Source: Deltaproteobacteria bacterium RIFCSPHIGHO2_02_FULL_40_28
GTDB taxonomy: Bacteria > UBA10199 > 2-12-FULL-40-28
Direction of reading: 5' to 3'
Assembly: GCA_001798135.1 (NCBI GenBank)
Contig: MGRJ01000031.1
Location: 62,001 to 126,000 of the forward strand
DNA length: 64,000 nucleotides
Positions 29,997 through 61,383 of the stretch are shown in pieces; the stretch's first letter is position 1, and each line of letters begins with the position of its first letter. Made by a program: the position numbers and the translations under genes. The notes under the pieces are model-generated. The model was not told where the DNA came from. It ran no database searches and saw nothing but the letters and a program-made list of their open reading frames with translations.

Positions 29997-30863
29997 CTAC
30001 ATTATTAATTTCATTAAACTTAACACCTGCAAATCAACCTCGTATTTTCCTTGATGATGCAAAGCCAAACCCAAAAGATGATCTTGGCTTGGACGTAAAA
30101 TTTGAAATTGAAATTCATCTGATTTGTAAGGAGGGGTTTTGGGGGATTTTTCCCAAATTTCTGGATTTAAGCGAACAGTAATATCACCATTTGGTTTCAA
30201 CGAAAAAACAGCATGAGCAAAAGTATAAAGCACAGGAATACCTGAAGCTTTGGTAAGAGATTCTTTGAGAACAGCGTACTGATAAAAACGAAACATGCGA
30301 TCTTCCCCTTTGCGGGATTCTACATCTTTTACTTCCTCCTCGGGCCCACCCACCATGGCCAAGCGACCCTCATCAACACGGGGTTCTTTGAGATATTCTA
30401 CGTCAATGCCATGGGACACATCACCTAGGGAACAAACAACCATTTTTTTGGTGTGACTCAGGCTAACAATAGAAGATGGATCCCCGCCTTCGCGGGAATG
30501 ACGAATATGTTTTTCATCCCCATCCGTAGGGGCAAACCCATGTGTTTGCCCGTTTAATGGGGTGACACATGGGTCACCCCCTACATTTAAGAGAGAAGTG
30601 TCATCCCCGCGAAGGCGGGGATCCATCTTCATTCTTGGACGCTTTCCTTCTTCCATTTCCAAATCCGGTGAAATTTTGACGCGCGCTAGGGCATGAGAGG
30701 CAAGGTATTGAGCACGAAATCCAGGATGAGTTGCTTCGTCAAAACGTTTTTGTTCAGAGGGAATTAAAGCTTCGTACAAAAACTTTTTTTCTTTTTCAGA
30801 AAAATGGTCAATGGATTCAGGAATGGGAAGCGACCAGATGGTAATTTTTTTGGTTTCATTCAT
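29997..30863 (-). CDS. Sfp-type 4'-phosphopantetheinyl transferase with a repeat-encoded insert
   Basis: PPTases move the phosphopantetheine arm of CoA onto a Ser of carrier domains. The 288-aa product keeps the family signatures: RAQYLASHALARVKI (about 50-64), SLSHTKKMVV (about 133), the Mg-binding GIDVEYL (about 151, Asp and Glu present) and YQYAVLKESLTKASGI (about 195-210). About 50 residues (79-128) between the first two signatures are translated copies of three interspersed repeats (PRLRGDDTS, GDPCVTPLNG, HSREGGDPSS) and are absent from the family. The frame stays open, so the enzyme is probably still made. It lies directly downstream of the megasynthase and is its likely activator. Confidence 0.85.
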   Translation of the reverse strand: MNETKKITIWSLPIPESIDHFSEKEKKFLYEALIPSEQKRFDEATHPGFRAQYLASHALARVKISPDLEMEEGKRPRMKMDPRLRGDDTSLLNVGGDPCVTPLNGQTHGFAPTDGDEKHIRHSREGGDPSSIVSLSHTKKMVVCSLGDVSHGIDVEYLKEPRVDEGRLAMVGGPEEEVKDVESRKGEDRMFRFYQYAVLKESLTKASGIPVLYTFAHAVFSLKPNGDITVRLNPEIWEKSPKTPPYKSDEFQFQILRPSQDHLLGLALHHQGKYEVDLQVLSLMKLIM

Positions 30864-30995: not shown

Positions 30996-33900
30996 TTATC
31001 CCGCGGCCTTTAAGGCTGCTGCAACCACTGGAGATGCACTTCCTCGTCTCATGGCACCTGCTCGTGTTGCCATTGCTTCCATACGAGCACTAGGACCGGC
31101 ATGTTCTATCACACCTACATCTTCTAGCACTTGATCGACAGCACTTGCAGGGTCTTCGGCATCCAAGGCCATAGCTAATTGCTGCCAATGAATATTTTCT
31201 AAACCAAGCCCTTCCATTTCATCACGGCCATAACCATGTTCTTCCAAACGAGCAAGAAGGGTTGCGCGATCCATCTCTCCAGTAGGGGCGTGATTTATCA
31301 CGCCCTGTTCAGAGGGCGCAATAAATTGCGCCCCTACATGAGAGACACCTTGAACCAAGCCACTACGCAAACCAGCAACATCTGCTAAGCTAACAAGTTC
31401 TCCAGTTGCTCTAGCCGCTACTTCTCCAGGTGCAGATGGAGAACCTGGATCGCCACGTCGCTCTTCGGGCTCCTCGCGATGACCAGGGCTCGGGCCATCT
31501 CCACCATCAGGGCCACTATCTCTTCCGGGCTCTGGAGGAGGTGGAGCTTCGCGTCCATGGATTAAACGTTCAAACGTACTCTCTAATTCTTCACCCACAC
31601 GTACTGTCCCCACATTTTGTGAAGCCAAGAAAATACCACCTTGCCTTCGCGTAGCATCATTAGCAGACTGGGCATTGGCAAAGGCATTAGTGACAGCTGT
31701 TCTCATCAAAGGCTTTGCAATGGCCTCTGTTAAAGTTTTATCTTTAATTTTCTCACGATAGAATTTTAATTGAGTGTCTAATTTTAAAGCTCCTGGAGTA
31801 TCCATTAAACGAAGTTTGCGGCCTTCGGCATCTTCAATCACACGAACAGCTACGGAACTACCTAAAGATGGATCCCCGCCTTCGCGGGGATGACTGAGGG
31901 TAAGGGGATCACTCAGAATAGTTTTTCCACCATACTGACTTTCTTTTGAATAAAGAATGGCATCATCCAAGGCTACACCGCTAGCGCCCCAATGAAATGC
32001 GCCTTTTACATCTTCGTGGGTGGTATAGGCACCCGAAGCAATGACTGGAATTTTTGCATCATACAAAGCTTCACGAGCTTTTCGAACAATCAGTTCGGGA
32101 TCGGCATTCATGTCGCGATTTTGTTCAACGGCTTGAAGAATTTTATTAAAATTATGCCCCAAAGCTTTTTTAACAAAAGCAAAGGTGGCTCTAATTTCTG
32201 GATCCTCGGGATGGGCACGCAAGTTTTCGATAGCTCGCGCCAATACGTTTTGAGCTGCCTTCATTTGAGGAACATAACGAGCCGTTAAAACACCAATGGC
32301 CTGTCCGTCTTCACCAAAGAAGGTAACTTTCATGCGCATATCACTCGTTAAGCCATCCCACTCTGGAACCTCAGCCACTAAGGTAATTGCTTCATTGGCT
32401 TCCGGTGCACGCAAAGGAGTGTACAAATTATCTGCAGTGAATCCCCAAATTTTAAAAGCCATCATGCCTGTCCAGCCTGTTAATTCATCAGCAGCCAGCA
32501 TCATGGAATGATAACGGCTTTGACCTTCAATGGGTGTTACCCTTCCCCAAAGAGCTTTTTTTCCATCATCATAATTAAATCTAAAATGTAAGCCCGTGCC
32601 ATGCTCATGCCCGGCTGCTACACAATTAGGTAAACATCCAAATTGAGCATTACTTGCAAGTTCGGCTGGATTAATTGTGCTGGCTTTATCTTTGCTTTTA
32701 ACTTTGGAAGCATCTTGGAAAGTAGCATTGGAAAGAGTTTTTTCTTCACGAGTGGCAGGCTTACCTCCTTCGGCTGGCTTATCAACAAGCTCCATCATTC
32801 TCATTTCAATGCGACCATCTGGTTTTTTCTCTACATAAATTCGAACATTGGCATTGGAAGGCGCATTCGCAATATAGCCCACGTTTCGATGCAATTTATT
32901 AATATCAACTCTTTCGCCACCCTTCACCATGGCTTCTAAAACAGATTCAAAAATGGAATCAAGCATGCCTCCATGGGTGATACCCGTGTATCCCGCATAA
33001 GTTTCTGGAAGTTTAAAATCGACTTCGGATTTATTGGAGTAAAGTCTAAAAGAAGGAAAATCCGTTGTTTTGAATTGTAAATTAATGGGGCGAAGGGGCA
33101 CAGTAGGCATCACATCCCACCTAGGATCTCTTAAGTCAGATAAATCACCAAATTTATTTTCTCCGGCCTGGTTTATATTTCCAGAAGAAATACTTCTCTC
33201 AACCACCACAGCATCAAACTTAGCCTTGGTAGTTTTTTGATTAGGTTTACCTTCGTGTTCAACCACCTTCATTTCAGTGAGTTTAATAACCTCGGCTGCT
33301 GTATCCACCGTTTGAAAAACAGCAATGCCTACTTTATTTAAAGCAATGACTTGTTCTGTCTTAGGCAATCCCCCTCTAAACATCACGCCGCGCACTTGCT
33401 TTTCTGCAACCACTTTAAGTTGGGCTTCAAAGTTAGAGGCAGAAACATCTAAACTCACCACAAGAGGCGCTGTATTACCTACAGCGGCATACACAGCATC
33501 AATTCTGGCCTCTAGGGTATCAGGGACCCCATTAACACCATTACCACCTTCAGTTGCTGCTTTTCTTGCAGCTCTTTCTCGTAAAACTTTTTCTGCTGCT
33601 GTTTCAGTGGCTTTTAAATTTCCTGCATCCAGGGTTCCAATGCCACCGGCATCAATAACAGCAATGGCCAAACTAGGTGTATTGACCTCTGGTGAAAAGC
33701 CACGTTGAAGCACAGGATAAGAAACACCCTTAAAGGCCTCGGGCATGGGCAACTGGGCTATCCCCTCTGCGTCATGTTTAATGCCTCTCTCTAAGGTTCT
33801 TTTTTCTTTGATGTCACCAATATGCTCAAAAGTATATTTGAGATAATCACCAGGTAAAATATCCGTCAGTAAAAGGGCCGTGTCTTCACGAGACATTTTG

Positions 33901-36900
33901 CCTTCAAACTCCCTGATATCTTTACCGTTGGCCACCCAGGCTGCTTTTTCAGCTCCTAGTCTTGCTTCTAAACGAGCTTGAACTTCTTGAATTCTTCTGG
34001 CCACCTCGGGATAAACAGACACTTCGTGCTTATCTACAAAAACATAAATATTTTGATCATAGAGACCCCTTTCAAACTCACCTTTTAGAGCTCCCAAGAG
34101 AGCACGCACAGAAAGTTCATTCATAGATACAAATTTTGTTACCGCAGGATCAACTCCTGGTAAGACAAGAGCTCCACTTTGAATATCTTCAAAAATGCGT
34201 TTTTCAATCAAGCCCGCCAAGGTTCCACCAGGAATTGCATGTAATGCAAAAGATAAAAAAGCAGGAAAACTTAAAACACGACGTAAACCTGTTTTAGGAT
34301 CAGAAAGCCTGGGGCTTGCCAATTCTTTTTTGGTGGTCATCTTGGCGCGACCCAGAGAACCCTTGGTTTCCCAGGTAGCCCCGCCGTACACTCCACCCAA
34401 CATTCCATCCGATTCAGAACCACGCCAATCAAACCAAAAAGTTTCTGAAGCTCCAAAATGTTTGCCCCTGGCTCCTTTTAACCAACCTTGTTCATTGAAT
34501 AAATCAAGCAAACGGGGATGGCTTCTGCCCATGGGAATAATGGTTGCTATTTCTTCTTCTTTTTCAGAGGCAAAATTAGGAATTTTTTTCATTTCTAATT
34601 CGCCATAGGAATTCATGCTAGGAACAGAAAGTTCGGGCTGGTAATGCGCCCTAGCAGGCAAGCCAAAGGCTACAGAGTCAAAGAAGTTTACCCCCGGGAG
34701 TAGATTTTGTTTAATCAAAGCATCAACAGTTAAACCTTTAATGTTATCCCATTGAAGCTCGGTGTCAAATTCTGTATTAACAGCGGCAAGCCAGCCCCTA
34801 GGGTCTGTAAATCCCAGTTCTTCTAACTTGGTTGTACCTTTCACCAGCACAGGGCGATTTAAAATACGAGAAGCTTTTCTAGTTAACCATCCACGAATTT
34901 CAGCAACGGTAGGCTCAAAAGCTTTTCCAACAGCTTCAACCACTTCTTTGGGAAGAGGAGTTGGAGTACCGGTTGCTGCCGGGTGGCCCACATCAAAGGG
35001 TACGGCATTTACATTAAGCAATTGTAAGTTAACTCCATGAGTCTCCGCCAAGGCCTTCAAAACAGCAGGATTAAAGGCAGAAGCTTTTTCAACAAGTTCT
35101 TCGGGTTTAGCGGGATCAACGGGATTTGGATCACGATGCACACCCACTACTTCTTTAACCGCTCCTGATTTAATCAGCGCGATTAAGGTGCGCATACCCA
35201 TGCCATCAGACATGCCGTAAAACACCATGGGACGACGATGCCAGTTTTTTTGACGAGCCAGGTGGCCCATTTCGTTTACTTCTCTTTGTCCAATGGAGTC
35301 ATAAATTTCTTTTACACGGGCTTGGGCCTCGGCATATTTAATGGCATTGTGCTGAGAGCGAATAATTTCTGCATTGGCGCGTTTGTTAGTGGCGCTAGCT
35401 TGATCTGCTGTAACTTCCAAGCGTTTTACCTTCTTGTTTTCGAAATCAACCGTATACACTCTGGGGTTTACAAAATTATTCTGGGCTAAATCGGTATCCA
35501 CTTCCAGCTCTACACCCTCATTTAAGGGGAATTGGTAAACCCAACTTTCGATATTGTTCCAATCCAGTTTTCTGCCTTCCAAAACAAGTGCACGAGCAAT
35601 GGCATGGGAACGCAAGGTTACTTCATATTGATCACGATAGAGAGAAACGGGGGTTTCTTGATAAGTAGCCCGATTAAAAAACATTTTACGCAAGCCCTGA
35701 CGTTCGGCTCTTTTTTGAACTCTTTCTTTCGCTACTCCCTCAATGAGTTTAGCCACATAATCCACTGCAGATTCTTCGGTCTCAAAACCCAGTTTTCCCA
35801 TCACTTCAATGATGGCTGTATTTTTAGCATTAAAACCAGCAGCCTCACGAAGCACCACCCATGTTACATCGTCATCGTAGAGATCCCTTAAATTCTCGGC
35901 ATGCTTATGGTGGTAAACAGTCACATTTTCTCCACCCTGTGCATGAATATTATCCAAACCAGGATCACCCGGAATACCCAAGAAACGCATCACAAGTGGA
36001 GATAAAGCTGAATCGGAACCGGAAGAACCACCCAAGAGATGTCCCATATGGGCCTTGGTTTTAACAATGTGGGCAAACTGGGTGGGATCTAAAATGGAAG
36101 AAAGGAAAAGACGTATGGATTCTTCCTCGTATAAATCTCCCATGGGCGTAGAAGTCTTGTGCGCCATTACAACCAGGCGTACATTTTCTTTAAGCTTACG
36201 GGTATTATCCACAAGAAAATCCACCAAATTTTTTCCCGTACGACCTTCTCCAACAGCTTTATTCCATTCTTCTTCAGTCAGTTTGGGGCCAAAACGTTCG
36301 ACTAACTTATTGTAGAGAGCTTTTTGTTCGGTAAGTTTTAAACCCCACGTACTGATGGCTGTATCGGCATTAAATTCTGCTTTTGCACGCCCTGCAGCAC
36401 GCTTCCCCCTTTGAACTGCAACCATTAATTCTTGTACAATACCCGTCATTTCCTCTGGGGTATGCAACACTTCAGTTAATTTTTCTTTGGCTTGATCCCA
36501 GGCATCAAAAAGAGCCGAGCGTTGACCAATACCGTAACCTTCTCTGGCTCCCTTGTAGGCTTGTTTATCTCCATCGGTGCGGCTTTCTGCCCCTGCAATC
36601 ATGGAGTAAACAGGATCTCCTGTTTTGATGGCATTAGAAAGTGGGGTAATCCCCTGACCACCACCACCCGCACCCAACACAAAACCAAAGCGTTCCATAT
36701 CATCGGGACGGGAAGCCATTTTAATGGCAATATCGCGACCACGACGAACAGAATCTCTTATTGTGGCTCCAATGGCATCAAAACCAAAAATGGCGTTGAA
36801 GGTAATGGCGTAATCAACTCCACCGGCAATCCAAATTTTTGCAAAAACTTCATCCCAGTTAACATCCATTCCACTTTCTTCTCTGCGTGTTGCAGCCCAA

Positions 36901-39900
36901 TACTCACTAAACAAATGTTTCACAGCCATCACAATGTTCATGTTTCCTGTAGAACAAGCAGCTACAACGGCTAGCGCCATCCCTTCAGCACCTAATTGTT
37001 CGGTAGCTACCTGACCTGTTGTTGAATCGGGAAGAAGAGCTGCCATTAAGTAGTTGGCCACGCTATCTTCTATTTGCATGGGTTTTAAGGTCATTTCATT
37101 GAAAGGCTCTAAGTCACCCAAGCCTGTACCAATGCCGACAAAAACATTTTTAGGACCAAAAACTTCATCCAACTCTTTAGGAGAGCGCCCTGCAGCCGAC
37201 ATCAAAATTTGGGATGTAAACATCTTGGCCATAAAGGAAGCTTTGGCCCCAGTACGAAGCTCGCTAGCGGGCACACCCATGCCTTCCCAGTCAAAACTGG
37301 TTTGACCCGGAAGATCGCCCGCAATGGTTTTAGGCAATTGAATTGTAAATTTCATGAAGTAGGTTTGGCCACCCTTGGCTAAAGCATACAGAGAGCCATC
37401 AGGACGCCTATGAATAGCCAAACCAGCATTTTCTAGTTTTGTACGAGTAGCTGCAGGTAAATTAATTCCCTTAGCAGTATTTTCAATTTCGATTTCCTTG
37501 TCATTATCTCCAAAAGCAACTTGGCGAAGCACTTCAAATTCTTTGAAGCGACCAACTTCCTGAATACCACTATTGGCCAAAAGATGCGCTTCAACAGCAT
37601 TTTGCCATGTTTTAAATTTTTCCAAAACAGCATCATCTAAACCAATGGAAGCGGCTAGTTTTTTATAATCTCCCCACTGGGAAACATCCACACCCATGGC
37701 CTTGGCCAAATTGTAAAAATCATAATTACCAAGCCAGCTATAACCCTCGTGCCCTTTAAATAAACCAGCCGCCAACATATTACGATAGTTGGCTAGGGCA
37801 TCTGTTCCCAAGGGACCAACCATGCCATACCCACGCACCACAGGAGTTTCATCTTCAAAAAGGATATCGGTTTTAGGCTTGTAAGCATAGCGACTGCTTG
37901 TTTCTCCCTTAATGGCAATGTTGATGTTATTGAGATCAACAATGGTTCCATCTAAGGGAATAAGGCTGGGATCTACTGCTGCTTTCTTTTCTTCTGCTTT
38001 TCTAGCTTTAGCTTCGGTATGTTTTATATCTTCTGTTTCTTTAACGCGCGCTTCTATCTCACCAAATTTTCCTGTTCTTAAGGCAGACGTAAAACCATAG
38101 GTATCATCATATTCCCAAAGACCTTGAACCCGCTTGCGGGTATCTCCCTCTGGGGGTCTCAATTTACGTTTCCCAAATTTAGCAGCCAGCGCCCCCGATA
38201 AACCAACTGTTGACAGCTCATCACCTGTAAGGGTTTTAATTTTAATTCCTTCTGCTAGTGATTCAGTTTCTAGAGGTTGCGAATAATAATCTTTGCCCGA
38301 CATTAAAGTTTCTGATCTGCCATCTGATTTTCCCCAACCCGTTGTTCTAGCTACTTCCACTAAAATGGGCTTTTCTTCTTCGTCTCTAATCCCATTGGCA
38401 TAGGCCTCTGCTGCGGTTTGACCTGGAGGCAGAGCATTTTTAGTTAAGTGATAACTTTTGGAACCTGGTAGGGCCGCAGGATTTAATTCTCCCTCAAGCT
38501 CACCCAAGTTTGCTGCATTATTGGGAGTGTAGAGATTAACAAAAACAACTTTCTCCCCTGTTTTGTATTTTTGATGGAGTTTAGCCAGACTAATGGCCAT
38601 CCAACGCGTAGAAAGAGCCATCACCAAAAGAGAATCGAGTGGAGTACCACGATCGGCTAGAGAGCCATAGTCTTCACGTCCAGCTCCATTGATGTAGAGA
38701 GTAGGGAGATGAGGCATTTGAGGTTCTACTTCTAATTCACCCTTTCTGTATTTTTCTTTATCTTCCTTGTATTGTTTTAAGTCTGCAACATACTTCATTT
38801 CGATGTAATAAAGCAGGGCATCTTCATCAAAGCGGTTTCCGGGTTGCATATTGGGCACCACATCCATACTGGCTCCATCCGCTGCCTCGCTGTAAATATC
38901 GTAGTAAAGATCGCTGGCTACTCTGCCTTTGCGCTCGGCACTTCGGCCAGCATAATCTGTCATCATCACGTTACCACCCAATTGCATCCACTTGGAGGCA
39001 TAGCCGGCTGTGATGGTTGAAGCTTGATGAATTAAGGCCACATGCCCACGCAAATCGTAACCATCCTCAAGTAAAAACTGGAGATCTTTCCCTGTTTTTT
39101 TATCGGCCATGGTGGGATCGGCTAATCTTTTCGCAGCTTCGATAGTGCCATCAGTATCTGGAACAAATTGTGATTTTTTAGCACCTCCATAGGTGGGAAC
39201 ATGATTACCCGAAACGATATCGATCACCTTCCCGGTATAAATAATTCCCTCATCCAAACGATGTGCAGCTAATGTGTAGAGATGTTCCAAGGTATCAATA
39301 CGTCCTTGGCGACGGGCCTTTTCTGCTGTATCCGCAGTTGCATCCCGTTTTTTGGTTTCGGCATTGATGAAACCACGCAACCAACCCAAGCGAATACTAT
39401 CGATTCCATTTGCAATTTGACGCATTTCTCTTTCTTCTTGGTCCAAAAGACTTGCACGTAATGCGTCAGAAGCATCTTCGGGCATACGGGTTTCAAAAGC
39501 AGCGCTTCGCACATAACCCACAAAACGCATGAGGCGGGCTATGCCTCCATTTTGGGTTACATGATTAAAACCATACACACCCATGCCAGCACGCACGGAA
39601 GTTAAAACACCTGTCACATCTTCGGCCGTCATATCCCCGCGTAAAATTTTACGAGGATCAATGGTTTCTGTTCCCCCCTCGGTACCTCGGTAGTAAATAC
39701 TATCGGCATAATGGGGTTGCATGAGGCTATCCATAAAGAAGTCGGAGGTGGAAACACGAACAGCCCCTAAACGACGTTCTGCTTCGGCTAAACGAGAAGC
39801 TTGTTCTGAATCATAAGTTGTGGGTGCGCCTTTAGCATCAAGACCCACACGGGTATCTGTGGCTTCTACTCCTCTAGCTGAAGGGGTTGCTAAAACAGCA

Positions 39901-42900
39901 ACAGCTGCACCTCGAGCCCCTGTTGCACCTGGCGAAGCTGGTGGTGGAGAATCTCCAGCAGCCGCAGGGGCGCTGCTCGCTGCGCCCACAGAAGCCAATG
40001 CTGTTTGAATGGCTTGTTGAATAAGCTTGTCTTCGTTAGAGAGAGTTGTAGTTGTTGCAACCGCTGCTGCTCCAAGCTTCACTCCTTTTTTATCTAAAAG
40101 TTTTGCAAAATCGTTAACGCTTTTTACTTTTTCCAGGTCTCCATCCGAAATGGTAATAGAATACTTGGCTTGATAGGCACTTCTAACTTCATTGATTTTA
40201 TTTGTATCAAAACCAAGATCATCCGCAAAACGAGTACTGGCTTCAATAGTTTCTGATACGCTCACTAAGCTTAATTGCTTCATGGTGAGGCCAATATCAT
40301 CTACTAAAGACCCTCCCCCTGCACCCCCTCCCTGAGGGAGGGGGGAAGTTTGTGCACTTCCGGTTTGAGCAGTAATTGCTGCTAATCTAGCCTCTAAACC
40401 CGACCTGGCCGAAGCTCCTAAACCTTGAAGTTGTGTTGCTAGTTGTGTTGCTAAAGCATCTAAATGAGTCCCGGCATCAATGGCTGCTCGATTAGCGGCT
40501 ACAAAGGTAGAAAGGGTGGAATCAACAGATGAGACCCCTCCCCCTGCACCCTCTCCCTGAGGGAGGGGGGAAGTATTGGTCATAACAGAATTGGTAAGGG
40601 CTTGGGTAATGGCTTTTTGTTCTACCTCTTCAGCAGGAGGAAGGGTAGCAGTAGCAGCAGAAGCTACAGCAACAGTTGCAGCAAGTTTGACTCCCTTTTT
40701 TTCTAAAAGAGCAGCAAACTGATTAACTGTGGATATTTTTTCAATCTCAGAATCGGCAATGGCAATGCCATGTCTACTTTGATAGGCATTTCTTAACTCG
40801 TTTATTTTGTTGGTATCATAACCCAAATCATCTTTAAAACGCGTACCCCCTTCTACAGCTTCTGACGCACCAATCTGACCTAATTGTTTCATGGTTACAA
40901 TAACATCATCTACTAAAGACCCTCCCCCTGCACCCCCTCCCTGAGGGAGGGGGGAAGTTTGTGCATTTCCAGCTTTACCAAGCAATTCACTTTGACGCGC
41001 TTTTAACGCATCTGCTGCACCCGCACCTAATGCAACTAATTGTCCAGATAATTGAGTAGCCAACGCATCTAAATTTTGACGCGCTTCAATAGCAGGTTTA
41101 TTGGCCCCCACAAAGGCATCAACAATGGCTTTTACTTCAGCAGGAGTTACTTGCTTGAGAGCAGAGGTACTCGAAGGTGCTACTGTAGCAATAGCTTGAG
41201 GCTGGGCTGCCACTTCATCTGCTGCTCCTCTTCGAAGATCTTCTAATGTTTCTACCTTGATTTCACCAACCGTAATATCGGGGCGGTTGACTTCAACAAC
41301 GGCTGTTTCGGCACTGGCAGTTAATGCCCCAATTTCCTTGGTATTAAAAGCCTTTAAAGAGTTGGCATAAATAATTTCAATGCGTTCATCAGGTTTAATA
41401 ATTCCTTTTGCTTTCAAATATTTTACTTCTTCTTCAATAAAGGGTTTTAAGGTGCCCGCTGATTGATGATGAGAAGGCCCAATTTCAATAAAGCGTCTTA
41501 CCCCTTCTTCTAACATTTTTCGAACATTAGCCCGCCAACGCACACTACGAGCCAATTGGCCGGCCATAATTTCACCCAAAAGTTGTTTTCTTCTCTCGTT
41601 AGTTGGAGGAGAAAAATCATCCTCGGCAATCCCTTTTTCTCTTCCTATTTCACGTAAAGATTTTCCTTCAACATCCAAGTAAACATCCACAGCTTGATCT
41701 AATTTAGCAGGATCAAAAGGAATACCATGCTGACGCATGTAAACCAAGAAATCCGCCGAAGCCATTTCCATCAAGGAGGTATGAAAAGCATTGGCAATGG
41801 GACGAATATTGAGTGTGTATCCAAATTGATCAAACAATCCCCACACACTTTCGGCTAAACGATAATACTGGGGATTTGTTGTGGGATTTTTATCAAACAA
41901 AGCCTTGTGTCCACCAATCATCCACTGTTTAGGAGAGTTATCATTGGAAAATTCAACAACAAAGGGTGGCTCAATCTCCATCTCTACACATTGCCCCCTC
42001 ACATACTCTTGCATTGCTGTCATTTGCGCTTCACTTAAAGGCTCAACCTCATCTCCCTTGGGAAACACAGCAACAAGAGCTTGCGGTCTTTCTGTATCAA
42101 TGTATCGCACCTGGGAAGAACCACGCTCGTAAACAGCTTTCATGGCATCATCAGGACTTAACATTCCAGAAGCAACTAGGGTAATCCACATGCCCAAACT
42201 ATGACCTGCATAAGCGGCATCACGAGGAATCAAACCCTTTGCCTGTAGCTCTTCAAACAAAATCAAAGAGTAGGCCATGATCATGGGTTGAACTTTGGAG
42301 GTATCATCTTCAGTTTTATCAGTCTTCCCCGCTTTGCTGTTCATGGATTTAACCAGATCAACAATGGGCTCTTTTCCATCAGGAGATAATCCAATGGAAT
42401 TCACTGCAGCTTTCAACGCCTCTCTTTTGTCTGCATCAATGTAGATTCCTAAAGAATCAATGGCATCTAAAAGGGGTTGATGTCTTTGGGCTGCATCGGC
42501 CTCTAAAAGGGCTTTATACAAAACAGGCATAACCCTGGCCTGACCAGCAATTTTAGCTTCTGCCCTGGTTGGCGCTGTATACTTGTAATGTTTTAATTCC
42601 CGTACAAGGGCGGCTTGAATCTTTCTGGCCGAAGCTGAAATTTTGGGCATGTACTCTTGAAACTGAGCCAGCCTGGCTCTTCTTGCCGGATCAGAAATGA
42701 GATGATTGCCCATATCCAGGTATTGAGAGCCCTGGCCTGTAAAAACAACGGCTGTTTTAACTCCCTTGCCTACCAAATCGTAACTCATCACAGCTGTGCC
42801 TTGTGCATTTTTTACTACCACATGGTAGGAATCTACACCTTCGGCGGTTGCTGTACGGGTTACCTCTGGAAAAAGTTTATCCCCCATCCCCACAAAGCCC

Positions 42901-46712: not shown

Positions 46713-46727
46713 ACTTTCTCCGTTCAT

Positions 46728-47015
46728 GGACCCAATTTAAAGCAATACCCCCTCGCTGCTTCACAGCAAGGCCTTCCAGACAAAACTCGAAAGATGAATA
46801 GTGATTCCTCTGCCCCAGGTGGACGGGAATGATGATTACTGACTTAAGACCCCAACACTCTAAAAACTGAATGGACGTTCAGCGTCCTTAGCGTAGCTGA
46901 AAATTCATTTCAAGAAAAAAATCAAATCTTTATCTGCCTCTTACAACCAAAGGTTGCTTCCTTTTTTTCCGTCATCCCTGCCTCTTTTGTCATCCCTGCG
47001 AAGGCAGGGATCCAT
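46728..47015. other. Spacer between carboxylase and megasynthase genes
   Basis: There is no gene here. It holds a GCTGC...GCAGC-type hairpin (about 46753-46770), small inverted repeats GGACGTTCAGCGTCC and TTCAGC/GCTGAA (about 46872-46902), and a GTCATCCCTGCGAAGGCAGGGATCC interspersed repeat (46984-47010) just past the carboxylase stop codon. I cannot see a strong terminator or promoter, so read-through from the carboxylase gene into the synthase gene is plausible. Confidence 0.5.
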
Positions 47016-50000
47016 CTATATCTTCGCCTTAACCCAAGTCATTTCACCACGGCGTCGGGCTAATTGATACACATTAGCACCCCTTGCCCCATTTGTAGGG
47101 GCAGGTTCTAAACCTGCCCGGGCGGGTTCAAGCTCTTCTGCAATCACTGCTAAAGCTTCCATATTTTCGGCTTGGACAGCTGCTCTTAAAGCAAGTTCCA
47201 TCTCTGCTGGGATAATATCCATTTCTGCGAATTCAGCTCCTAAATCAGCATCTACAGCAGCTATTACCTCTGCCAAGGGGGTTTGATCCATCTCAGTAGG
47301 AATGGCTAAATCGTGGAAACCAAGGGTGTCTAAAAGCTCGCGAGCGGTTTGAACAACCCACTCAGTATAAATCCCTCGGGTTGCCGCTCGGGATGCCCTT
47401 TCCTCAGGAGTTTCCAAGAATACTAATCTGGGAGCTAAACTAAGAGCGTTCGCTCCACTTACAGCGGATAAACCACCTAAAACTTCTCCACCTATTGCCA
47501 ATCCTAATGGAGAATCCGTAGGGGCAGGTTCTAAACCTGCCCCCGAATCATGGACGGGTTGGGAACCCGCCCCTACACGATCTGTGGGTTCAACCCCTCG
47601 GCTCCCCCCTTGCTCTCTGGTAGGGACTTGCCCTTCTGCTGGCAGGCCACCACCAGAACCAGGAGAAGGTCTCTCTGGAGGTGTTACTCCATTGGCAAGC
47701 CCCGCCTTGACATAAATAGGTCCACGCTGGGATTTAGCTACTTCACCAAATCCACTACTTCCATTACGATACAGAACCGTATTACCTTCAAAAATTTCTG
47801 GCGTCTTTTCATAAGCAACTACAATGTGGGTTACTTGGGGAAATGCTGCTCTCACCCTCTCAAAAATATTCTGTTGAGTAAAAAATGGAATTCCGATGGG
47901 TTTGTTAATTCCCTTACTTTGACTCGGGGTTTTTACTTGTGAAAAACGAATAATTTTTCCGTCATCATGAACGCTAATACGAACATGTCTGGTTGAAGAA
48001 AAAACATAGGCACCGTTAACCTGTTCTTTTTCAACCCAACCTAACGCTTGTGCTACTGTTACAGGGGTTACAAGAGTAACTGGGGCGACGCGTGGGTCGC
48101 CCCCTACATCAGGAGCAAGGGTAGTTACGGTAGGGGCAAACCCCTGTGTTTGCCCTTCTGTTGGTGGATCTCCTGGAGGAGGATCACCTGCTGGAGCACT
48201 CGAAGCAGGGCCGCCAGAAGGTGGGGTTCTCACCAAGGCCAATAAACCTTCTGCTAAACTTTCAGCTCCCATAACTGCTGATAAACGCCCACGCATTGGT
48301 TTTGGCAACATTTCTAAAAGCCCACGAGCACGTTCCATCAAAGTTACTGCTTGTCCAAACTTGGCCTCGTTAATTTTTTCTGCTAAGAAAGCTGTATTTT
48401 TTTGAATCCAATTTTCTACAAAGGCATTATCGGCCCATAATTCATCGTTGGTTCGACCTGGATTGCCACGCGTCGCCATGTCTTCATTAAACCAACCACG
48501 AATTTTTTCTCTCGCTTCTACAGGAGTGAGATTAAATTCTCCCGTATCTCCATCACGCCCAGAGGCCTGCAGAAGAGCTTTTCTTAATTGATCAAAGGCC
48601 ACACTTCTGGCCAACCATTGATGTCCTTCAGATCTAAAATCTTTCCAATCTACAATGCGGTTGATCACTCCTTTTGTAAGCATGCGTTCGGGCACATCAT
48701 GGGCATCAGCAAATTGAGTGGCAATAGATCGATAAACAGGAAGAAGTATTTTTTCCCTGGCGGCAATTTGTTCTTTAAATCCTGTAGTTTGTCCACTATC
48801 AGCAGGCACCCTGGCAAGTTGAGATTCTAGCTCAATGATGGCATCATCACATTCTCTCATCTTGGCTTTTAAAAACTCATCATCTTTTCCCCAAATTTTA
48901 AGTCTGGCAGTAGCTCCTGCTTCCAAAACATTTCCACGAGAAGTAGATTCTGCCCAAAAGGTTGCTTGATCTTGATGATTAATGGTTGGATCAACCACCA
49001 CCCAGGCTCCACCCCGCAGCTCTCCAAAGGGAGGCAGCATAATCATTACAGGAGCATCGTACTGACGCAATTCATCCACAATAAAAGAACCATACTTCAA
49101 AATATGGTCGAACATGTTATCGACACCGCCCGAAAATCCTCTCCAGTTGGGAAGCACCACTAAAGGTAAACCTTCGCGCCTGGCATCCCCCATAAATTCA
49201 GCTGTTTTCCAAGCCGAATCAGACCACCACACCTTGCCTGCTTGATCCACACGCCTTTCAGAAGAAGCTCTCATGGCTGCATCAGCAGGAATAACTTTTT
49301 GTGTCGACCGTAATTCGGGTGTCAGCACAGCAACAGGAATACCTCCCCATCGAGCCCGACCCGTCACCACACTTTTAGCCCATTCCCCCATGTCTTCCTT
49401 AAAAGATCCCTCATCTAAAAAGCCCGGGGCATACTCTCCTTCAAAAGCAATGGTACCCTCTTTGGCAACAGGAGTTGGACCACCACGAATTAAAAAGCGG
49501 GGATCATAAACCATTGCGGGGTCAAGAGGTTTCCAAAGGTTGGTGCGGTTTACTGGATCTGTGTTCTTTACAATGAGAAGTTCGCCGCCTTTTACTTTTG
49601 GAATAAAAGAAATCCAATCCAAAAAGGTTTTCATTCCAGCAATATCATCTTCTACCACAGTGCGAGTATTTCCATTGGCCGCATGAATATTCACTCCACC
49701 AAATTCCTGGTTATCGGTGTAATACTCATCTCCCATCAACTCATTCATCATGTCTTTACCAGTAAGCATCATGGCCGTGCCCCGTTTTTGAATGACACGA
49801 CGATTTAAACGGCTAATATACGCCCCAATACCCACGTTTAGCCCCATTACGTAAGTGAAGGTAAGGCCTTCATCATAGGCCTTAGAGGCTTCTCCCGCAA
49901 TGGTTCCAGAGCCTCTTAGATTTTCAACTCCAATACCATCGGGGCCATCTTTAATACCGGTAATTTTCCAACGAGTTTCACCTTCTACAGTAATTTGTTC

Positions 50001-53000
50001 TGCTAAAATTTCTTCTGCAAATTTTGGATATTGTTCTTCAGTAAGATAAACATACCCTCCCTGAGCGGGATTGCTAGAATCATTCAAAGCATATTTTTTT
50101 GCTTTCTTTAATTCTTCAAAAACTCCAATGCGGGCTCCTGAATTAGCAGCAACATAAAGGAAAGGAAGTCCTGATTTTCTGGCATACTCGGAAGCCTTTT
50201 GATATACTTCATCTTCGGCCTCAGAAAAAGAACCATAATCGATATTAAAATCGTTGGTGGCAATAATGATGTCACGCCCCTCAGGAAATTCAGGAGTACA
50301 AAGCGTTACCTTAAAGGCCACCATGCCTACAGTGTTTTGTCCTGCAGGTCGGCTTGTAGAAACCAAATTGCCATGTCTATCAACCACCATTTCGACAGCA
50401 GAGACTACAGTAGAAGGATCGGCTGTTTCTATGAGTTTGGGAATATCATAAGCATAGGTTTGTCCCCTGCTTTGAGCAAACAAACGGCGTTTATCAATTT
50501 TATCCAAGGGAGTGTAGGGAGTATCCCGATCTTTTCCACCCAGATCATGGGCACCAAAAGTTAGAGCCCTGTAAGTAATTTGACCAGTGGTCCCATTGGT
50601 TACTTCCTCATAGCCATGAACTTCTAATTTATGCCCCGAAGGATTACTGGCTACAAAAAGATATGGCTTGGGCGCAGGATTACCATCTTTTAATAAAAGT
50701 TTTACCTCTACCATCCCCACCCGCAATTCTTTTAAACGTCCCAGATTGCGTTCGTAGATGGTTTGAATAACATGGGCTACATTGGTGGTTTCTAAATCGA
50801 TGGGGTCTGATACATTCAAAAAAACTTGGTTAAAAGTTGTTTTGTCATAGGGAGAGCCTTTTCTTAAAGTCATCTCCATGGCATCCAAACTTTCTGAAAA
50901 AGCCTCTTCAACTCGAGGAATAAAAATTACTTGTTCCGCCCCAATCCCATTGCGCCGGACCTTAGCTCCCCGAACAACATGTCTCACAAAAAAGCGGGAA
51001 TCACGGTCTTTATCTTTGATGGGTTTTTGATCAACAGCGCGACCCCAAATGGGATCTCCTTCTCCACTCCTTATATTCACCACCTTCTCACGACCATAGT
51101 AGAGATGAATTTGGTGGTTAGGCACGGGCAGGGCCTGCACATCAAACCAACTCATCCGATTGGGAGTTAAAGTATAGGCCAGGGCTGGCTCCATGTGACG
51201 TACGATAACATCTTCCTTCCAACTCAAATCTTTGCGGAAAGTATAAAAAGCAGGATAGACCCCTGGTTTATTAATAATAAAACTCATCCGATTGATATTA
51301 TAAGATTCAAATTTATTTTTCTGAGCATCAACTATCTTTTGCAAAGCAGCAAGAATAGCCTTTTCATCTCCTTGAGGAGCCTCTTTTAAAACCAAGTTGA
51401 GGGTTCTCTCTGTTCCTGAAGGAACCCCTACAAAACTTTCCAAAACCATATTCCAGTTTCTCTCAAGCTGTTCTTGATTTTGAAAAACCATCATGGATCC
51501 AGAGCGAGCATCTCTACCTCTCACAGCACGTGCAGAACGATAATTCCATACCACCGCTTGGGTTTCACCACCCCCCACTAGAGGATATCCATGGGTTTCA
51601 ATTCTTGAAAATTCATGACCCCGATAAGCTCTTTTTACATAAACTTGCAAAGCAGTATCAATAACAGCCGGATCGGTATCAAACAAATGGGGAACAACCA
51701 GCTGAAATAAAGATCGATGTTCTCCAACAAGAGCTGCTATGAGTCCATCTCGAAGTTCAGGGCGAGATCTATTGATTTCTAAAATACGGCTTCTCACTTG
51801 TCTAATTCCTTCCTCTATACCCACCTGACGATTTCTTAAAATGGCTTGGGCTGCCTTGTGAGCCAAGGGATCAAAGGCTTTGCCTCGAAGTGATTTAACC
51901 CCTACCAAACTCCCTGTTAAATCGCCTACCAGCCCTTTTTGAGACACTTGCTCCATTAAAGCTGCAATAAAAATATTTCTTTTTAAAACAGGCTTGTCTT
52001 TTTTACTCTTGGCCTCGGCATCCTCCCACATGTAAATTTCATTGTGAGCTTGGGAATAAGCATGCACATCAATAGTTTTTTCTCGTTTTAATTCAACGGT
52101 GGCGCGATAATAAGTTTTCCCTTGGAAAGCTTGTTCTACTTTTGTAAATTCAGCAAATAAACCTCTAATCACTCGATTTCGGTTTCCAGCAATGCCCTCT
52201 TTGTAATTTTCAGCTAATTCTTGGAAAGGTTTTGCTGCCATTTTAAAAGCTTCTTGTTTGGCCTTTAAAATTTCAGCTTGTTTTTCCTCACGCTCAGCTT
52301 CTTTTAAGTCTCCCCTTTCAATTAAGGATTGCACTTCTCTAGCAGAGTCCCTTGCCAATTGATCTCCTGCTTCATATCGTGCAATTATTTGAAGAATGTC
52401 TGCAGAAGGGAAAGCTGGTGGAGGAGAAGCAGCTAAACCAGCAGCATAGGCATCTACCAAGCTTCTTAATTGTTCACGAACAGTTCTGGGAAGGCTGCCC
52501 TGATAAACTGAATAAAAATAATTAAATTGCTCGATGGGAAGCCTTGGATTTTCAAGGGCAGTAAAAAGTTGGTTTATAACCAAACTTGCAAGATTTTCCA
52601 TACCACTGTCTGGTCCAAAACCTCCAAGGATTTGCCTGGCCTGATTATAAGCCCATTCGTACTGGCTTCTTAAACTCTCTCCCACTTTTAAGGGGGATGC
52701 CATTGCACGCAATTGATCAGCAAAAAGCACCGCCTTTTTCACTTTATCGGGTTCCTTTAAATCTATGTTGGCTAAAAGGTCTCCGGCTACAACTCCTGTG
52801 TTGGGAGCTATGGTGTACGAAAGTATTCCATCTTCCAAGGCCACCATTTGACTTACTGCTTTCATGGCCTCATATTCAATAATGGGCATTCCTTTTTTAA
52901 CTTCCGATCCATTAGGAACCAAGTAACGAATAAATTTTCCGGGAGCTTCTGCTAAAATTTTGGAAGGATCATATTCGTTGGGGAAAAATACTGTTTTCCA

Positions 53001-55379
53001 ACCCACATCCAGTTGCAATCCACTGGGAAGCGCACGACCAGAAACCAATTGGTATTTTCCATCAACACCAATCATATAATCTCTGCCCGCCTCCGGTCCT
53101 ACTTGCAACACATGGGCTTCTACTGCTCTTCCATTGAGATTCAAAGAATAGCGACCATCACCTAAGTAATTTACCTTAAAGCTATACTTGGTATCTTCTG
53201 TCTCCCTATTAATCACATCAACAGCAAAGCTGGTATCTAAAAGCCTGGCAAAGGGGACATGGCCCCTGTTAGATTCGGCCTGATATTCCTTTTGTCGGCC
53301 CAATAAAGTTTCGTGAGCTTTAAAGGCTGCAGCTAAAACAATGCTCAAATCTTTTTCGGGCTGGTTTACCAAACCACCACTCTCTACCAATTCATCTAGT
53401 TTGGTAGTCGTAGCTTCTGTTGATGAATTTTTTCGAAAAGTATCAGACTCTAAGTATTGCAAAATGGCTGCTGCAGGAGTTCTAAATTGGGGAACTCGAA
53501 GCATTTGAAGAGCCACGGCCATTTTATTAATGGCGTCATCTCTATTTTCACCATGGGCAAAAATATGCATGAATTGCGAATCGGCAAATTCGTGAATTCC
53601 TCCTGGAGCTGCAAAAGAAGTATAGCCCCAAACACCGGGCATATTTCTAAAAGTGATCTCATGGGCACTTCCAGGAGAGGCCCTCCAACCACGGTCGGGA
53701 TCTCGTGCAGTAATACGAACAGCAATCACATGCCCACGCGGTGGAAGAGGTTCTTTGGTATCAAAATCAATGAGGGTATGTCCCCAGGGATCTTCTCCAT
53801 ACAGTCTTCGAATATCAGGAATACGATGAAGACTGGCCCCCATCTCAACATGCAATTGCGCCACAGGAAGATTTACTCCTGTAATCATTTCACTTACAGG
53901 ATGCTCTACTTGTAAACGAGGATTTACTTCTAAAAAGAAAGCTTCGTTGTCTACGGTGCTATATAAATTTTCAATGGTGCCTGCATTTTGGTAGCCCACC
54001 ATTTTCATGGCAGCCACAGCAGATCGACGCATTTTTAAACGTTCATCTTCATGCAATCCAATAGGTGGACCTTCTTCAATTACTTTTTGAAAGTCTTTTT
54101 GAGTAGAACAATCTCGTTCGTACAAAACAATGGCCTGCCCATGCTTATCGGCCAAGCCTTGCAGCTCGATGTGCCGGGCATTGGGAATAAAAGCCATGAT
54201 TAACACAGGGCCCGCTACTTCGGCTTGAGTTTGCGTAAAAAGTTTTCGGATTTCCTCGTCGAGTGTTGCTGGATCTTCAATTAATTTTTCAAGCTTACGA
54301 ATTCCCTTTCCTCCTCCTCCAAACACAGCTTTAAACATAAAGGGAACTTGAATATTTTTTTCACGAATAACGCGCACGGCATCATCAGCAGTAGTAACCG
54401 TTGAGAGGGCATAAATTTCAGGGGGAATATTGGTTACATCCTCAATGCGACCTTCTAAACCAAATCCACTCCAAGGAGCAATACGCATGCCGGCCTTGCC
54501 GCCAACCAATAAGGCAGAAGCCTTGTCTCCAAAGGCATTCATGGCGCATGCTCGGGGACCAATAAAGCCAATTCCAAGTTCATCTAAACGCGTAGGTAAT
54601 GCTGGATTTTCAGAAGCAAAGCCCCAACCAGGCCACACAGCATCAACTCCATGGGTATGGGCTAAATCTACAATCAAATCGACATTAGAAAAATTATTAG
54701 CGGGACCTCCATCGGGTACTAAAGCAATTTCACAGCCCAGGGTTGCTGCTAAACGAATAAACTCGGCATTGGCTTTTAAATCCTGGGCTGTCACCATGAT
54801 GACAAACTTGATTTCATCAGGGTGCCCAAAGGTTTCGTAAGACCATTGCCAGATAGAACGAATAAACTTGGCAGCAGCCATGCCTGAGTTTGCAATTAAA
54901 ATTTTGCTTATGGGTTTTTCTGCACCAATAAAACTTGAATATTCATCAATGGAATTAAAACGACGGGAAGGGCTAATACTAACCACTCTTGGAATCGGAA
55001 ACAAATTTGCAGGTACTACAAATATCCCTTCTTGGCTAAGTGCAGCTTGAGGCATAGACCACTTGGGAAATGCTAGATCCAAGGAAGATAAATCACTGGG
55101 AATGGCAAGAGGAAAAACAACAACATCAGTATCAACAACAGTAATGCCATGTAAGTAAGCCTCTAAGGCTTGTTTCGCTGCTGCTCTTGGACCTTCTTCA
55201 CCAGAAGTTCCGGCAAGAATAGTACCTAATTTTCTGATAATATCGGCAGGGGCAACCCAGTCTGTTGGATTACCTAATCCAAGGCTCTCACTTGCAGGGG
55301 CAAGAGCCACTTCAAGAGAGATTACTTCTCCTGAAACTTCTCCTGCAATGATTCTTCTCCAAGTTGCACTATCCGCCAT
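47016..55379 (-). CDS. Eukaryote-type multidomain acetyl-CoA carboxylase
   Basis: This single 2787-aa chain makes malonyl-CoA from acetyl-CoA, bicarbonate and ATP. The order is as in eukaryotic ACC. Biotin carboxylase comes first (about 158-640; ISKILIANSGMAAAKFIRS, GGGGKGIRK near 351, FLEVNPRLQVEHPVSE near 483). A biotin carrier follows (about 812-880; biotinyl Lys840 in EAMKAV, where EVMKM is usual). Then come a long central region (about 885-1600) and carboxyltransferase (about 1620-2195; VAANSGARIGVFEE, GVENLRGSGTIAGEASKAY, NWRGFSGGVDNM, PPFGELRGGAWVV). The last ~590 residues are an extra tail with repeat-encoded Pro/Gly linkers. Bacteria normally use four separate subunits. I chose the ATG at 55379 because GAGGG lies five bases upstream. 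The in-frame TTG at 55391 is less likely. Confidence 0.9.
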   Translation of the reverse strand: MADSATWRRIIAGEVSGEVISLEVALAPASESLGLGNPTDWVAPADIIRKLGTILAGTSGEEGPRAAAKQALEAYLHGITVVDTDVVVFPLAIPSDLSSLDLAFPKWSMPQAALSQEGIFVVPANLFPIPRVVSISPSRRFNSIDEYSSFIGAEKPISKILIANSGMAAAKFIRSIWQWSYETFGHPDEIKFVIMVTAQDLKANAEFIRLAATLGCEIALVPDGGPANNFSNVDLIVDLAHTHGVDAVWPGWGFASENPALPTRLDELGIGFIGPRACAMNAFGDKASALLVGGKAGMRIAPWSGFGLEGRIEDVTNIPPEIYALSTVTTADDAVRVIREKNIQVPFMFKAVFGGGGKGIRKLEKLIEDPATLDEEIRKLFTQTQAEVAGPVLIMAFIPNARHIELQGLADKHGQAIVLYERDCSTQKDFQKVIEEGPPIGLHEDERLKMRRSAVAAMKMVGYQNAGTIENLYSTVDNEAFFLEVNPRLQVEHPVSEMITGVNLPVAQLHVEMGASLHRIPDIRRLYGEDPWGHTLIDFDTKEPLPPRGHVIAVRITARDPDRGWRASPGSAHEITFRNMPGVWGYTSFAAPGGIHEFADSQFMHIFAHGENRDDAINKMAVALQMLRVPQFRTPAAAILQYLESDTFRKNSSTEATTTKLDELVESGGLVNQPEKDLSIVLAAAFKAHETLLGRQKEYQAESNRGHVPFARLLDTSFAVDVINRETEDTKYSFKVNYLGDGRYSLNLNGRAVEAHVLQVGPEAGRDYMIGVDGKYQLVSGRALPSGLQLDVGWKTVFFPNEYDPSKILAEAPGKFIRYLVPNGSEVKKGMPIIEYEAMKAVSQMVALEDGILSYTIAPNTGVVAGDLLANIDLKEPDKVKKAVLFADQLRAMASPLKVGESLRSQYEWAYNQARQILGGFGPDSGMENLASLVINQLFTALENPRLPIEQFNYFYSVYQGSLPRTVREQLRSLVDAYAAGLAASPPPAFPSADILQIIARYEAGDQLARDSAREVQSLIERGDLKEAEREEKQAEILKAKQEAFKMAAKPFQELAENYKEGIAGNRNRVIRGLFAEFTKVEQAFQGKTYYRATVELKREKTIDVHAYSQAHNEIYMWEDAEAKSKKDKPVLKRNIFIAALMEQVSQKGLVGDLTGSLVGVKSLRGKAFDPLAHKAAQAILRNRQVGIEEGIRQVRSRILEINRSRPELRDGLIAALVGEHRSLFQLVVPHLFDTDPAVIDTALQVYVKRAYRGHEFSRIETHGYPLVGGGETQAVVWNYRSARAVRGRDARSGSMMVFQNQEQLERNWNMVLESFVGVPSGTERTLNLVLKEAPQGDEKAILAALQKIVDAQKNKFESYNINRMSFIINKPGVYPAFYTFRKDLSWKEDVIVRHMEPALAYTLTPNRMSWFDVQALPVPNHQIHLYYGREKVVNIRSGEGDPIWGRAVDQKPIKDKDRDSRFFVRHVVRGAKVRRNGIGAEQVIFIPRVEEAFSESLDAMEMTLRKGSPYDKTTFNQVFLNVSDPIDLETTNVAHVIQTIYERNLGRLKELRVGMVEVKLLLKDGNPAPKPYLFVASNPSGHKLEVHGYEEVTNGTTGQITYRALTFGAHDLGGKDRDTPYTPLDKIDKRRLFAQSRGQTYAYDIPKLIETADPSTVVSAVEMVVDRHGNLVSTSRPAGQNTVGMVAFKVTLCTPEFPEGRDIIIATNDFNIDYGSFSEAEDEVYQKASEYARKSGLPFLYVAANSGARIGVFEELKKAKKYALNDSSNPAQGGYVYLTEEQYPKFAEEILAEQITVEGETRWKITGIKDGPDGIGVENLRGSGTIAGEASKAYDEGLTFTYVMGLNVGIGAYISRLNRRVIQKRGTAMMLTGKDMMNELMGDEYYTDNQEFGGVNIHAANGNTRTVVEDDIAGMKTFLDWISFIPKVKGGELLIVKNTDPVNRTNLWKPLDPAMVYDPRFLIRGGPTPVAKEGTIAFEGEYAPGFLDEGSFKEDMGEWAKSVVTGRARWGGIPVAVLTPELRSTQKVIPADAAMRASSERRVDQAGKVWWSDSAWKTAEFMGDARREGLPLVVLPNWRGFSGGVDNMFDHILKYGSFIVDELRQYDAPVMIMLPPFGELRGGAWVVVDPTINHQDQATFWAESTSRGNVLEAGATARLKIWGKDDEFLKAKMRECDDAIIELESQLARVPADSGQTTGFKEQIAAREKILLPVYRSIATQFADAHDVPERMLTKGVINRIVDWKDFRSEGHQWLARSVAFDQLRKALLQASGRDGDTGEFNLTPVEAREKIRGWFNEDMATRGNPGRTNDELWADNAFVENWIQKNTAFLAEKINEAKFGQAVTLMERARGLLEMLPKPMRGRLSAVMGAESLAEGLLALVRTPPSGGPASSAPAGDPPPGDPPTEGQTQGFAPTVTTLAPDVGGDPRVAPVTLVTPVTVAQALGWVEKEQVNGAYVFSSTRHVRISVHDDGKIIRFSQVKTPSQSKGINKPIGIPFFTQQNIFERVRAAFPQVTHIVVAYEKTPEIFEGNTVLYRNGSSGFGEVAKSQRGPIYVKAGLANGVTPPERPSPGSGGGLPAEGQVPTREQGGSRGVEPTDRVGAGSQPVHDSGAGLEPAPTDSPLGLAIGGEVLGGLSAVSGANALSLAPRLVFLETPEERASRAATRGIYTEWVVQTARELLDTLGFHDLAIPTEMDQTPLAEVIAAVDADLGAEFAEMDIIPAEMELALRAAVQAENMEALAVIAEELEPARAGLEPAPTNGARGANVYQLARRRGEMTWVKAKI
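47092..48157. repeat. In-frame interspersed repeats in the carboxylase tail
   Basis: Copies of the GTAGGGGC/GCCCCTAC family at 47092-47126, 47517-47574 (two units) and 48079-48157 (two units) are translated in frame, giving peptides such as GLEPAPT, GAGSQPVHD and EGQTQGFAPT in the Pro-rich C-terminal tail. They avoid the catalytic domains. Confidence 0.8.
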
Positions 55380-55393
55380 AACATCCCTCAAAC

Positions 55394-59784: not shown

Positions 59785-59820
59785 AAAATATAAAGGCTTT
59801 TTGCAAAAGCCATTTAATGT

Positions 59821-61377: not shown

Positions 61378-61383
61378 AATAAT

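Follow-up and report, generated by a model that had tools for sequence, protein, structure and literature searches.

A locus for a eukaryote-type acetyl-CoA carboxylase and a putative divergent type I fatty acid synthase in a bacterium filed as Deltaproteobacteria

Introduction

Most bacteria use separate small enzymes for fatty acid synthesis. In this study, we describe a three-gene locus for a single-chain acetyl-CoA carboxylase (ACC), a giant protein that is most likely a type I fatty acid synthase (FAS), and an Sfp-type phosphopantetheinyl transferase (PPTase). The locus lies in a 64,000-nt stretch (the window) of contig MGRJ01000031.1 (62,001-126,000) of Deltaproteobacteria bacterium RIFCSPHIGHO2_02_FULL_40_28 (GCA_001798135.1). 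Its products probably constitute the main de novo fatty acid synthesis machinery of the cell in a fused form, a reading to which we assign a probability of about 0.7.

Type I FAS (FAS I) was stated in a 2022 review to be confined to eukaryotes and Corynebacteriales, and the same review knows the enoyl reductase FabV as a free enzyme (PMC9260719). Bacterial multidomain ACC has been described in one actinobacterial group, where SACE_4237 of Saccharopolyspora erythraea was reported to carry a central region of eukaryotic type and to be indispensable for making fatty acids (PMC6491548).

Bacterial and fungal FAS I (Corynebacterium/Mycobacterium, PDB 6gjc, 4v8l; fungal alpha/beta, PDB 4v58) and the window synthase have in common the order acyltransferase (AT), dehydratase (DH), malonyl/palmitoyl transferase (MPT), acyl carrier protein (ACP), ketoreductase (KR) and ketosynthase (KS), together with FAS1-type DH and MPT domains, a dedicated PPTase and a domain-wise profile match. 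In contrast, the window synthase has 5243 aa against about 3000, is without the enoyl reductase (ER) segment between AT and DH, adds FabV-like, FabK-like and thioesterase-like domains at its C-terminus, carries two ACP repeats with Thr, and has a KS apparently outside the canonical FAS I clade. Its FabV-like part resembles FabV (PMC9260719) by a fold-level profile match of its family and a conserved Tyr-Lys pair, but sits as a domain inside a type I synthase.

The ACC resembles the eukaryotic cytosolic enzymes (human ACC1/ACC2, yeast Acc1; PDB 6g2d, 3tdc, 5csk) in having the biotin carboxylase (BC), BT, biotin carrier (BCCP), central and carboxyltransferase (CT) domains in a single chain, in its 43% CT identity and in a shared clade. 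It differs from them in being encoded by a bacterial gene without introns and beside its own FAS, and in a low-complexity C-terminal extension that holds repeat insertions. SACE_4237 (compared by description, and like the window ACC with a central region) and the ACCs in Tsukamurella and Gordonia plasmid records are also bacterial single-chain enzymes; unlike the window ACC they are actinobacterial, and the Tsukamurella and Gordonia CT domains are about 30% identical to that of the window over short stretches only.

Gene organization

Three intact open reading frames (ORFs) were found in a row on the minus strand, encoding the ACC, then the FAS, then the PPTase, and the base composition was uniform over the locus.

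47016..55391, minus strand: single-chain eukaryote-type ACC; 2791 aa from TTG, 2787 from the ATG at 55379
30996..46727, minus strand: putative divergent type I FAS; 5243 aa, or 5238 counted from the sixth codon
29997..30863, minus strand: Sfp-type PPTase; 288 aa; PF01648 7e-6; GIDVE and KESLTK motifs; in-frame repeat insertions

The original prediction had proposed a single-chain ACC with the eukaryotic domain order, a giant synthase with FAS-I-type AT, DH, MPT, ACP, KR and KS regions, and an Sfp-type PPTase after it, all on one strand. The ACC was confirmed by Pfam, the match to human ACC1 and a CT tree; the synthase by Pfam and by alignment to canonical FAS I; and the PPTase, on the same minus strand, by a PF01648 match and the presence of both the GIDVE and KESxxK motifs. 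The lengths of 2787 and 5238 aa given there follow from internal ATG starts, and the PPTase gene lies just outside the range of 30996-55379 that it covered. All the domains named there were found, but the list did not contain the FabV-like, FabK-like and thioesterase-like domains or the absence of the FAS I ER.

The source genome is metagenome-derived, is divided into 31 contigs, and is listed as 100% complete. It was compared with a phylum set (n=46) and a control set (n=14), in which genomes bear labels such as G007-G045. The locus is far beyond chance, because the ACC central domain was found in none of the 14 control genomes and another family holds a collinear homologue of the synthase.

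Acetyl-CoA carboxylase

Pfam detected BC, BT, Biotin_lipoyl, ACC_central (7e-97) and Carboxyl_trans (2e-106) in the eukaryotic order, BC-BT-BCCP-central-CT, on one chain.

53421..54911, minus strand: biotin carboxylase domain; residues 161-657; GGGGKG loop
52764..52946, minus strand: biotin carrier domain; residues 816-876; EAMK biotinylation site at residue 841
50562..52760, minus strand: central (non-catalytic) region of eukaryotic type; residues 878-1610; PF08326 E 7.1e-97
48633..50291, minus strand: carboxyltransferase domain; residues 1701-2253; 43.4% identity to human ACC2
47019..48398, minus strand: C-terminal extension; residues ~2332-2791; low complexity; in-frame repeats D5 (47547) and D9 (48130)

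The top solved structures were human ACC1 (1217 bits) and yeast ACC (1149 bits), with bacterial carboxylases far lower, and the alignment to human ACC1 was full-length. The identity of the CT domain to human ACC2 extended over 600 aa. In a CT tree whose eukaryotic ACC sequences were animal only, the window ACC, human ACC1/2 and the ACCs of G044 and G042, two genomes of the same order, formed one clade (100/99), and the Tsukamurella and Gordonia ACCs fell outside it, alongside remoter relatives from the phylum. The G044 CT domain shared 51.5% identity with human ACC2, against 44% with the window. Approximately unbiased (AU) tests of the inner order of this clade gave p values of 0.10-0.35 and singled out no direction of ACC transfer. 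PF08326 was present in 10 of the 46 genomes of the phylum compared with 0 of the 14 control genomes. Judged from its sequence, the window ACC is eukaryote-type from end to end, central region included.

Domain organization of the synthase

In the synthase, Pfam detected FAS1-type DH (PF13452), MaoC (PF01575), acyltransferase (PF00698), PP-binding (PF00550), KS (PF00109/PF02801) and nitronate monooxygenase (PF03060) domains. The AT and KR were missed by Pfam and were picked up by profile-profile alignment (hhalign) to canonical FAS I, for which the query consisted of the window synthase and its homologue in G045, and the targets were four FAS I from the phylum, of canonical or near-canonical type. 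The DH (99%), MPT (98.4%), KS (98.4%) and KR (96.4%) were all matched in FAS I order. The AT match was weaker, at 54% in a local alignment (E 1.3e-4) and 89% in a longer one; shuffled sequences and an unrelated control gave 0.1-0.2%.

44808..46280, minus strand: acetyl/acyltransferase region; residues ~150-640; GQSGG at 349; BLAST to G045 over residues 156-568
42807..43988, minus strand: dehydratase double hotdog; residues 914-1307; DLNPIH at 1219; PF13452, PF01575; hhalign 99%
41358..42746, minus strand: malonyl/palmitoyl transferase; residues ~1328-1790; GHSLG at 1508; PF00698; hhalign 98.4%
40698..40910, minus strand: putative ACP repeat 1; about residues 1940-2010; GYDT at 1969; read from sequence
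40092..40310, minus strand: ACP repeat 2; about residues 2140-2212; GFDT at 2172; PF00550 6e-5
38154..39086, minus strand: ketoreductase; residues ~2548-2858; YHLTK; hhalign 96.4%, E 1e-9 to FAS I KR
35928..37475, minus strand: ketosynthase; residues ~3085-3600; PF00109/PF02801; hhalign 98.4%; Cys-His-His (ACSTGN 3257, HKTST 3523, GH ~3562)

The catalytic motifs of the AT (GQSGG), MPT (GHSLG), DH (DLNPIH), KR (YHLTK) and KS (Cys-His-His) are intact by sequence. Domain order and profile matches suggest that the protein is a very divergent type I FAS, most likely derived from the FAS I lineage. It departs from two usual features of FAS I, namely the position of the ER and the Ser of the ACP.

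In a KS tree, the window and G045 sequences made up a separate clade on a long branch (99/98), placed between FAS I sequences and those of the FabF/polyketide synthase (PKS) group. The synthase gave no PfaA-level score, and its KS was not nested in a known PKS or polyunsaturated fatty acid (PUFA) synthase clade, a placement that the original prediction had named as one that would speak against it; forcing the two sequences together with the PKS of the phylum was mildly rejected (p-AU 0.036). The branch is long, and therefore no exact tree position is claimed. Elsewhere in this tree, the KS of the FAS I in G032 (L020) and G044 (L140) grouped with the fungal FAS alpha KS (99/93; G032 and the fungus 100/99). 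A guessed segment of G032 gave no match in the PDB.

Enoyl reduction and the C-terminal domains

The ER segment of FAS I, an FMN barrel plus the helical PF08354, lies between AT and DH. No match to PF08354 was found by Pfam in the window synthase, in which the AT-DH gap is only about 250 residues and the linker scored 5-24% in hhalign. Three other domains were found in the C-terminal part.

33918..35240, minus strand: FabV-like enoyl reductase domain; residues ~3830-4270; family profile against FabV 96.5%, E 9e-10
33180..33734, minus strand: FabK/nitronate-monooxygenase-like barrel, first part; residues 4332-4516; PF03060 9e-17; NCBIfam FabK 6e-6
32136..33095, minus strand: double-hotdog thioesterase-like domain; residues 4545-4864; THGG at 4585; Foldseek to thioesterases E 3.7e-5
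31923-32090, minus strand: FabK-like barrel, second part; near residues 4880-4935

PF12241 matched no megasynthase of the phylum, and profile-profile comparison was therefore used for FabV. The family profile, built from the window synthase, that of G045 and four relatives from family f11, matched FabV over 343 columns, and a FabG control against it gave 0.8%. The Yx8K pair of FabV is exact in the f11 relatives.

The FabK-like barrel is interrupted by the thioesterase-like domain, which is common to the window and G045 synthases (30% identity). The barrel itself is missing from the G045 synthase and appears degenerate, without the catalytic His; the FabV-like domain would therefore be the better candidate for the reductase. 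A relocated canonical FAS I reductase was ruled out as the identity of the FabK-like barrel, which matched that segment at 0.1%.

Counterparts in other genomes

A search for the gene set in related genomes, as the original prediction had proposed, found its counterpart in G045, of the same order and another family, where a FAS, a PPTase and a single-chain ACC lie on one strand. The G045 FAS (4436 aa) is collinear with the window FAS, to which it is about 25-35% identical as the nearest homologue, and has a duplicated ACP and the FabV-like and thioesterase-like C-terminus. It differs in having no FabK-like barrel and in ACPs with Ser, and the G045 ACC is of a different kind, a PccB-like fusion in which the central domain is missing.

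In Tsukamurella tyrosinosolvens, a canonical FAS I was found with a PPTase and a single-chain ACC after it, and the three genes also occur together in several metagenome-assembled genomes filed as Deltaproteobacteria/Myxococcales. The original prediction knew of no described counterpart, a view that these adjacent sets and the eukaryote-type ACC of Saccharopolyspora (PMC6491548) overturn. The combination of FAS I, PPTase and ACC recurs as a module, of which the window holds the most rearranged case in these data. In family f11, like parts are separate proteins: a eukaryote-type ACC, a protein with two KS_C domains and a DH/FabV-like protein. The genome contigs and viral contigs gave no match when scanned with the divergent window FAS; a canonical FAS I used as the query of the genome contigs recovered relatives.

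Further observations were made on individual loci. The Tsukamurella FAS I (L184:10988-20287) is annotated as 'type I polyketide synthase', beside a holo-ACP synthase and the multidomain ACC. A split version in G012 (L173:2244-18946) runs through a eukaryote-type ACC, a 289-aa ORF, a 1736-aa protein with two KS_C domains and a 1081-aa MaoC plus FabV-like protein. In G041 (L133:3854 to L134:11200), a 6448-aa open frame fuses a PutA (proline dehydrogenase/aldehyde dehydrogenase) part to a type I FAS.

Role of the locus in the cell

A PF02801 search of the genome showed that the window KS is its only KS_C (KAS I/II-type) ketosynthase. PlsX was found in none of the 46 genomes of the phylum. No AccD-like protein was found in the genome, whose CT domains are those of the window ACC and of three PccB-like proteins of ~520-540 aa. 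PlsC-type acyltransferases are present, and the genome therefore builds acyl lipids. Classical type II FAS seems to be missing from the phylum. The locus is probably the housekeeping FAS of the cell rather than a special-lipid system, which is the more likely because it holds the only KS_C ketosynthase of the genome and the phylum is without PlsX.

In the proposed scheme, the eukaryote-type ACC would make malonyl-CoA, and the diverged type I FAS (AT-DH-MPT-ACPx2-KR-KS with FabV-like, FabK-like and thioesterase-like domains) would elongate acetyl units on ACPs primed by the neighbouring PPTase. Thr may replace Ser as the phosphopantetheine site, the FabV-like domain would carry out enoyl reduction, and the thioesterase-like domain would release the product. 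The fused system would be essential to the cell.

Several observations weigh against this scheme. A pair of FabH-like genes and a single free ACP-like gene remain in the genome, so that some dissociated acyl chemistry persists; one FabH-like gene stands alone near ruvB and the other is in a sugar/AMP-ligase cluster. In both ACP repeats, Thr occupies the phosphopantetheine site at which Ser is expected and G045 has Ser (GSKK), and this substitution is the main doubt about the function of the synthase. The nucleotide-binding motif of the KR is degenerate in the window, and the YxxxK of the KR is missing in G045. The FabV assignment leans on the f11 relatives, as the window and G045 sequences alone matched FabV at 10% (E 0.003) in the same register, and the window domain retains the Tyr and Lys at a spacing widened by an insertion. 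AlphaFold models were poor: that of KR-KS (pLDDT 30) was unusable, and that of the C-terminal region (pLDDT 48) yielded solely the hotdog thioesterase match. The two FabH-like genes and the ACP-like gene were located at G000:C20:54174, G000:C24:77076 and C24:93752, outside any type II FAS operon.

An unlikely alternative is that the locus encodes a specialised lipid or polyketide-like synthase, making a special membrane, storage or signalling lipid, and that ordinary fatty acids are taken from a host or prey. The very long KS branch outside FAS I proper and the additional thioesterase-like and FabK-like domains would fit such a role. KS_C domains occur in 20 of the 46 genomes of the phylum, several of them clearly PKS-like or FAS-I-like, and are missing from the other 26, so some relatives may import fatty acids. 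However, the domain order and the affinity of DH, MPT and KR are those of FAS I, grouping of the KS with the PKS of the phylum was mildly rejected, and the PF02801 and PlsX searches found no other de novo system in the genome. The suggestion in the original prediction of a dedicated system, perhaps for special lipids, is not supported.

Less probable still is a decaying FAS I, that is, an old synthase drifting under weak selection and not fully active any more. The Thr in both ACPs, the degenerate KR nucleotide motif, the interrupted FabK-like barrel apparently without its catalytic His, the low identity to the nearest homologue and the in-frame repeat insertions could all be expected of such a protein. 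On the other hand, the 15.7-kb ORF is open throughout, its KS, MPT, DH and KR motifs are intact, the PPTase and ACC are retained alongside, and the domain order is conserved between families. An assembly or fusion artefact that joined genes in a false ORF, or eukaryotic contamination, is very improbable despite the unusual size and the metagenomic origin in 31 contigs, given 5243 codons without a stop, collinear homology to the 4436-aa ORF of another genome, even base composition, the presence within the genes of interspersed repeats typical of this genome, no introns and a listed contamination of 0.03%.

Repeats and neighbouring genes

The PPTase, FAS and ACC genes contain short palindromic repeats (GATGGATCCCCGCCTNCGCGGGGATGAC and others) in frame, at 30475-30502, 30600-30627, 31867-31894 and 46989-47016; at 40311-40349, 40536-40574 and 40920-40958; and at 47547 and 48130. 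GATGGATCCCCGCCTNCGCGGGGATGAC has 59 copies in the genome compared with 0 for a reversed control. These in-frame elements are reminiscent of Rickettsia palindromic elements.

Downstream of the PPTase gene, one further gene on the same strand was noted.

26043..29729, minus strand: 1228-aa protein with weak ClpA-type AAA similarity (TIGR02639 1.5e-7)

This protein was 24% identical (E 2e-18) to a 1206-aa neighbour of the G044 FAS, and whether it is part of the FAS system is uncertain. At 58582-62169 of the window, a divergent operon encodes a lysine-2,3-aminomutase-like radical SAM protein and both D-lysine 5,6-aminomutase subunits, which suggests lysine fermentation.

Implications

The FAS I/PPTase/single-chain ACC layout is not unique to the window, and bacterial eukaryote-type ACC has been described before. 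Apparently new here, within the open literature searched, are the reductase swap, the additional domains and a phylum apparently without type II FAS, and a prior description elsewhere is possible. As a tentative view of somewhat below even probability, the whole candidate phylum, filed as 'Deltaproteobacteria', may have given up dissociated type II FAS for diversified type I synthases and multidomain ACCs, of which some resemble human ACC (51% CT identity) and fungal FAS alpha KS more closely than they do other bacterial versions. With respect to the eukaryotic cytosolic fatty acid machinery, the phylum would then be a donor, a sister or a recipient, and in one of its branches the ER of the FAS would have been replaced by a FabV-type domain.

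FAS I and multidomain ACC stand side by side in a lineage that is filed under Deltaproteobacteria and shows no trace of type II FAS. The reductase of FAS I may be exchangeable, and an unusual inhibitor profile is predicted, for example FabV-type insensitivity to triclosan. With bacterial outgroups, it becomes testable where eukaryotic ACC and fungal FAS came from.
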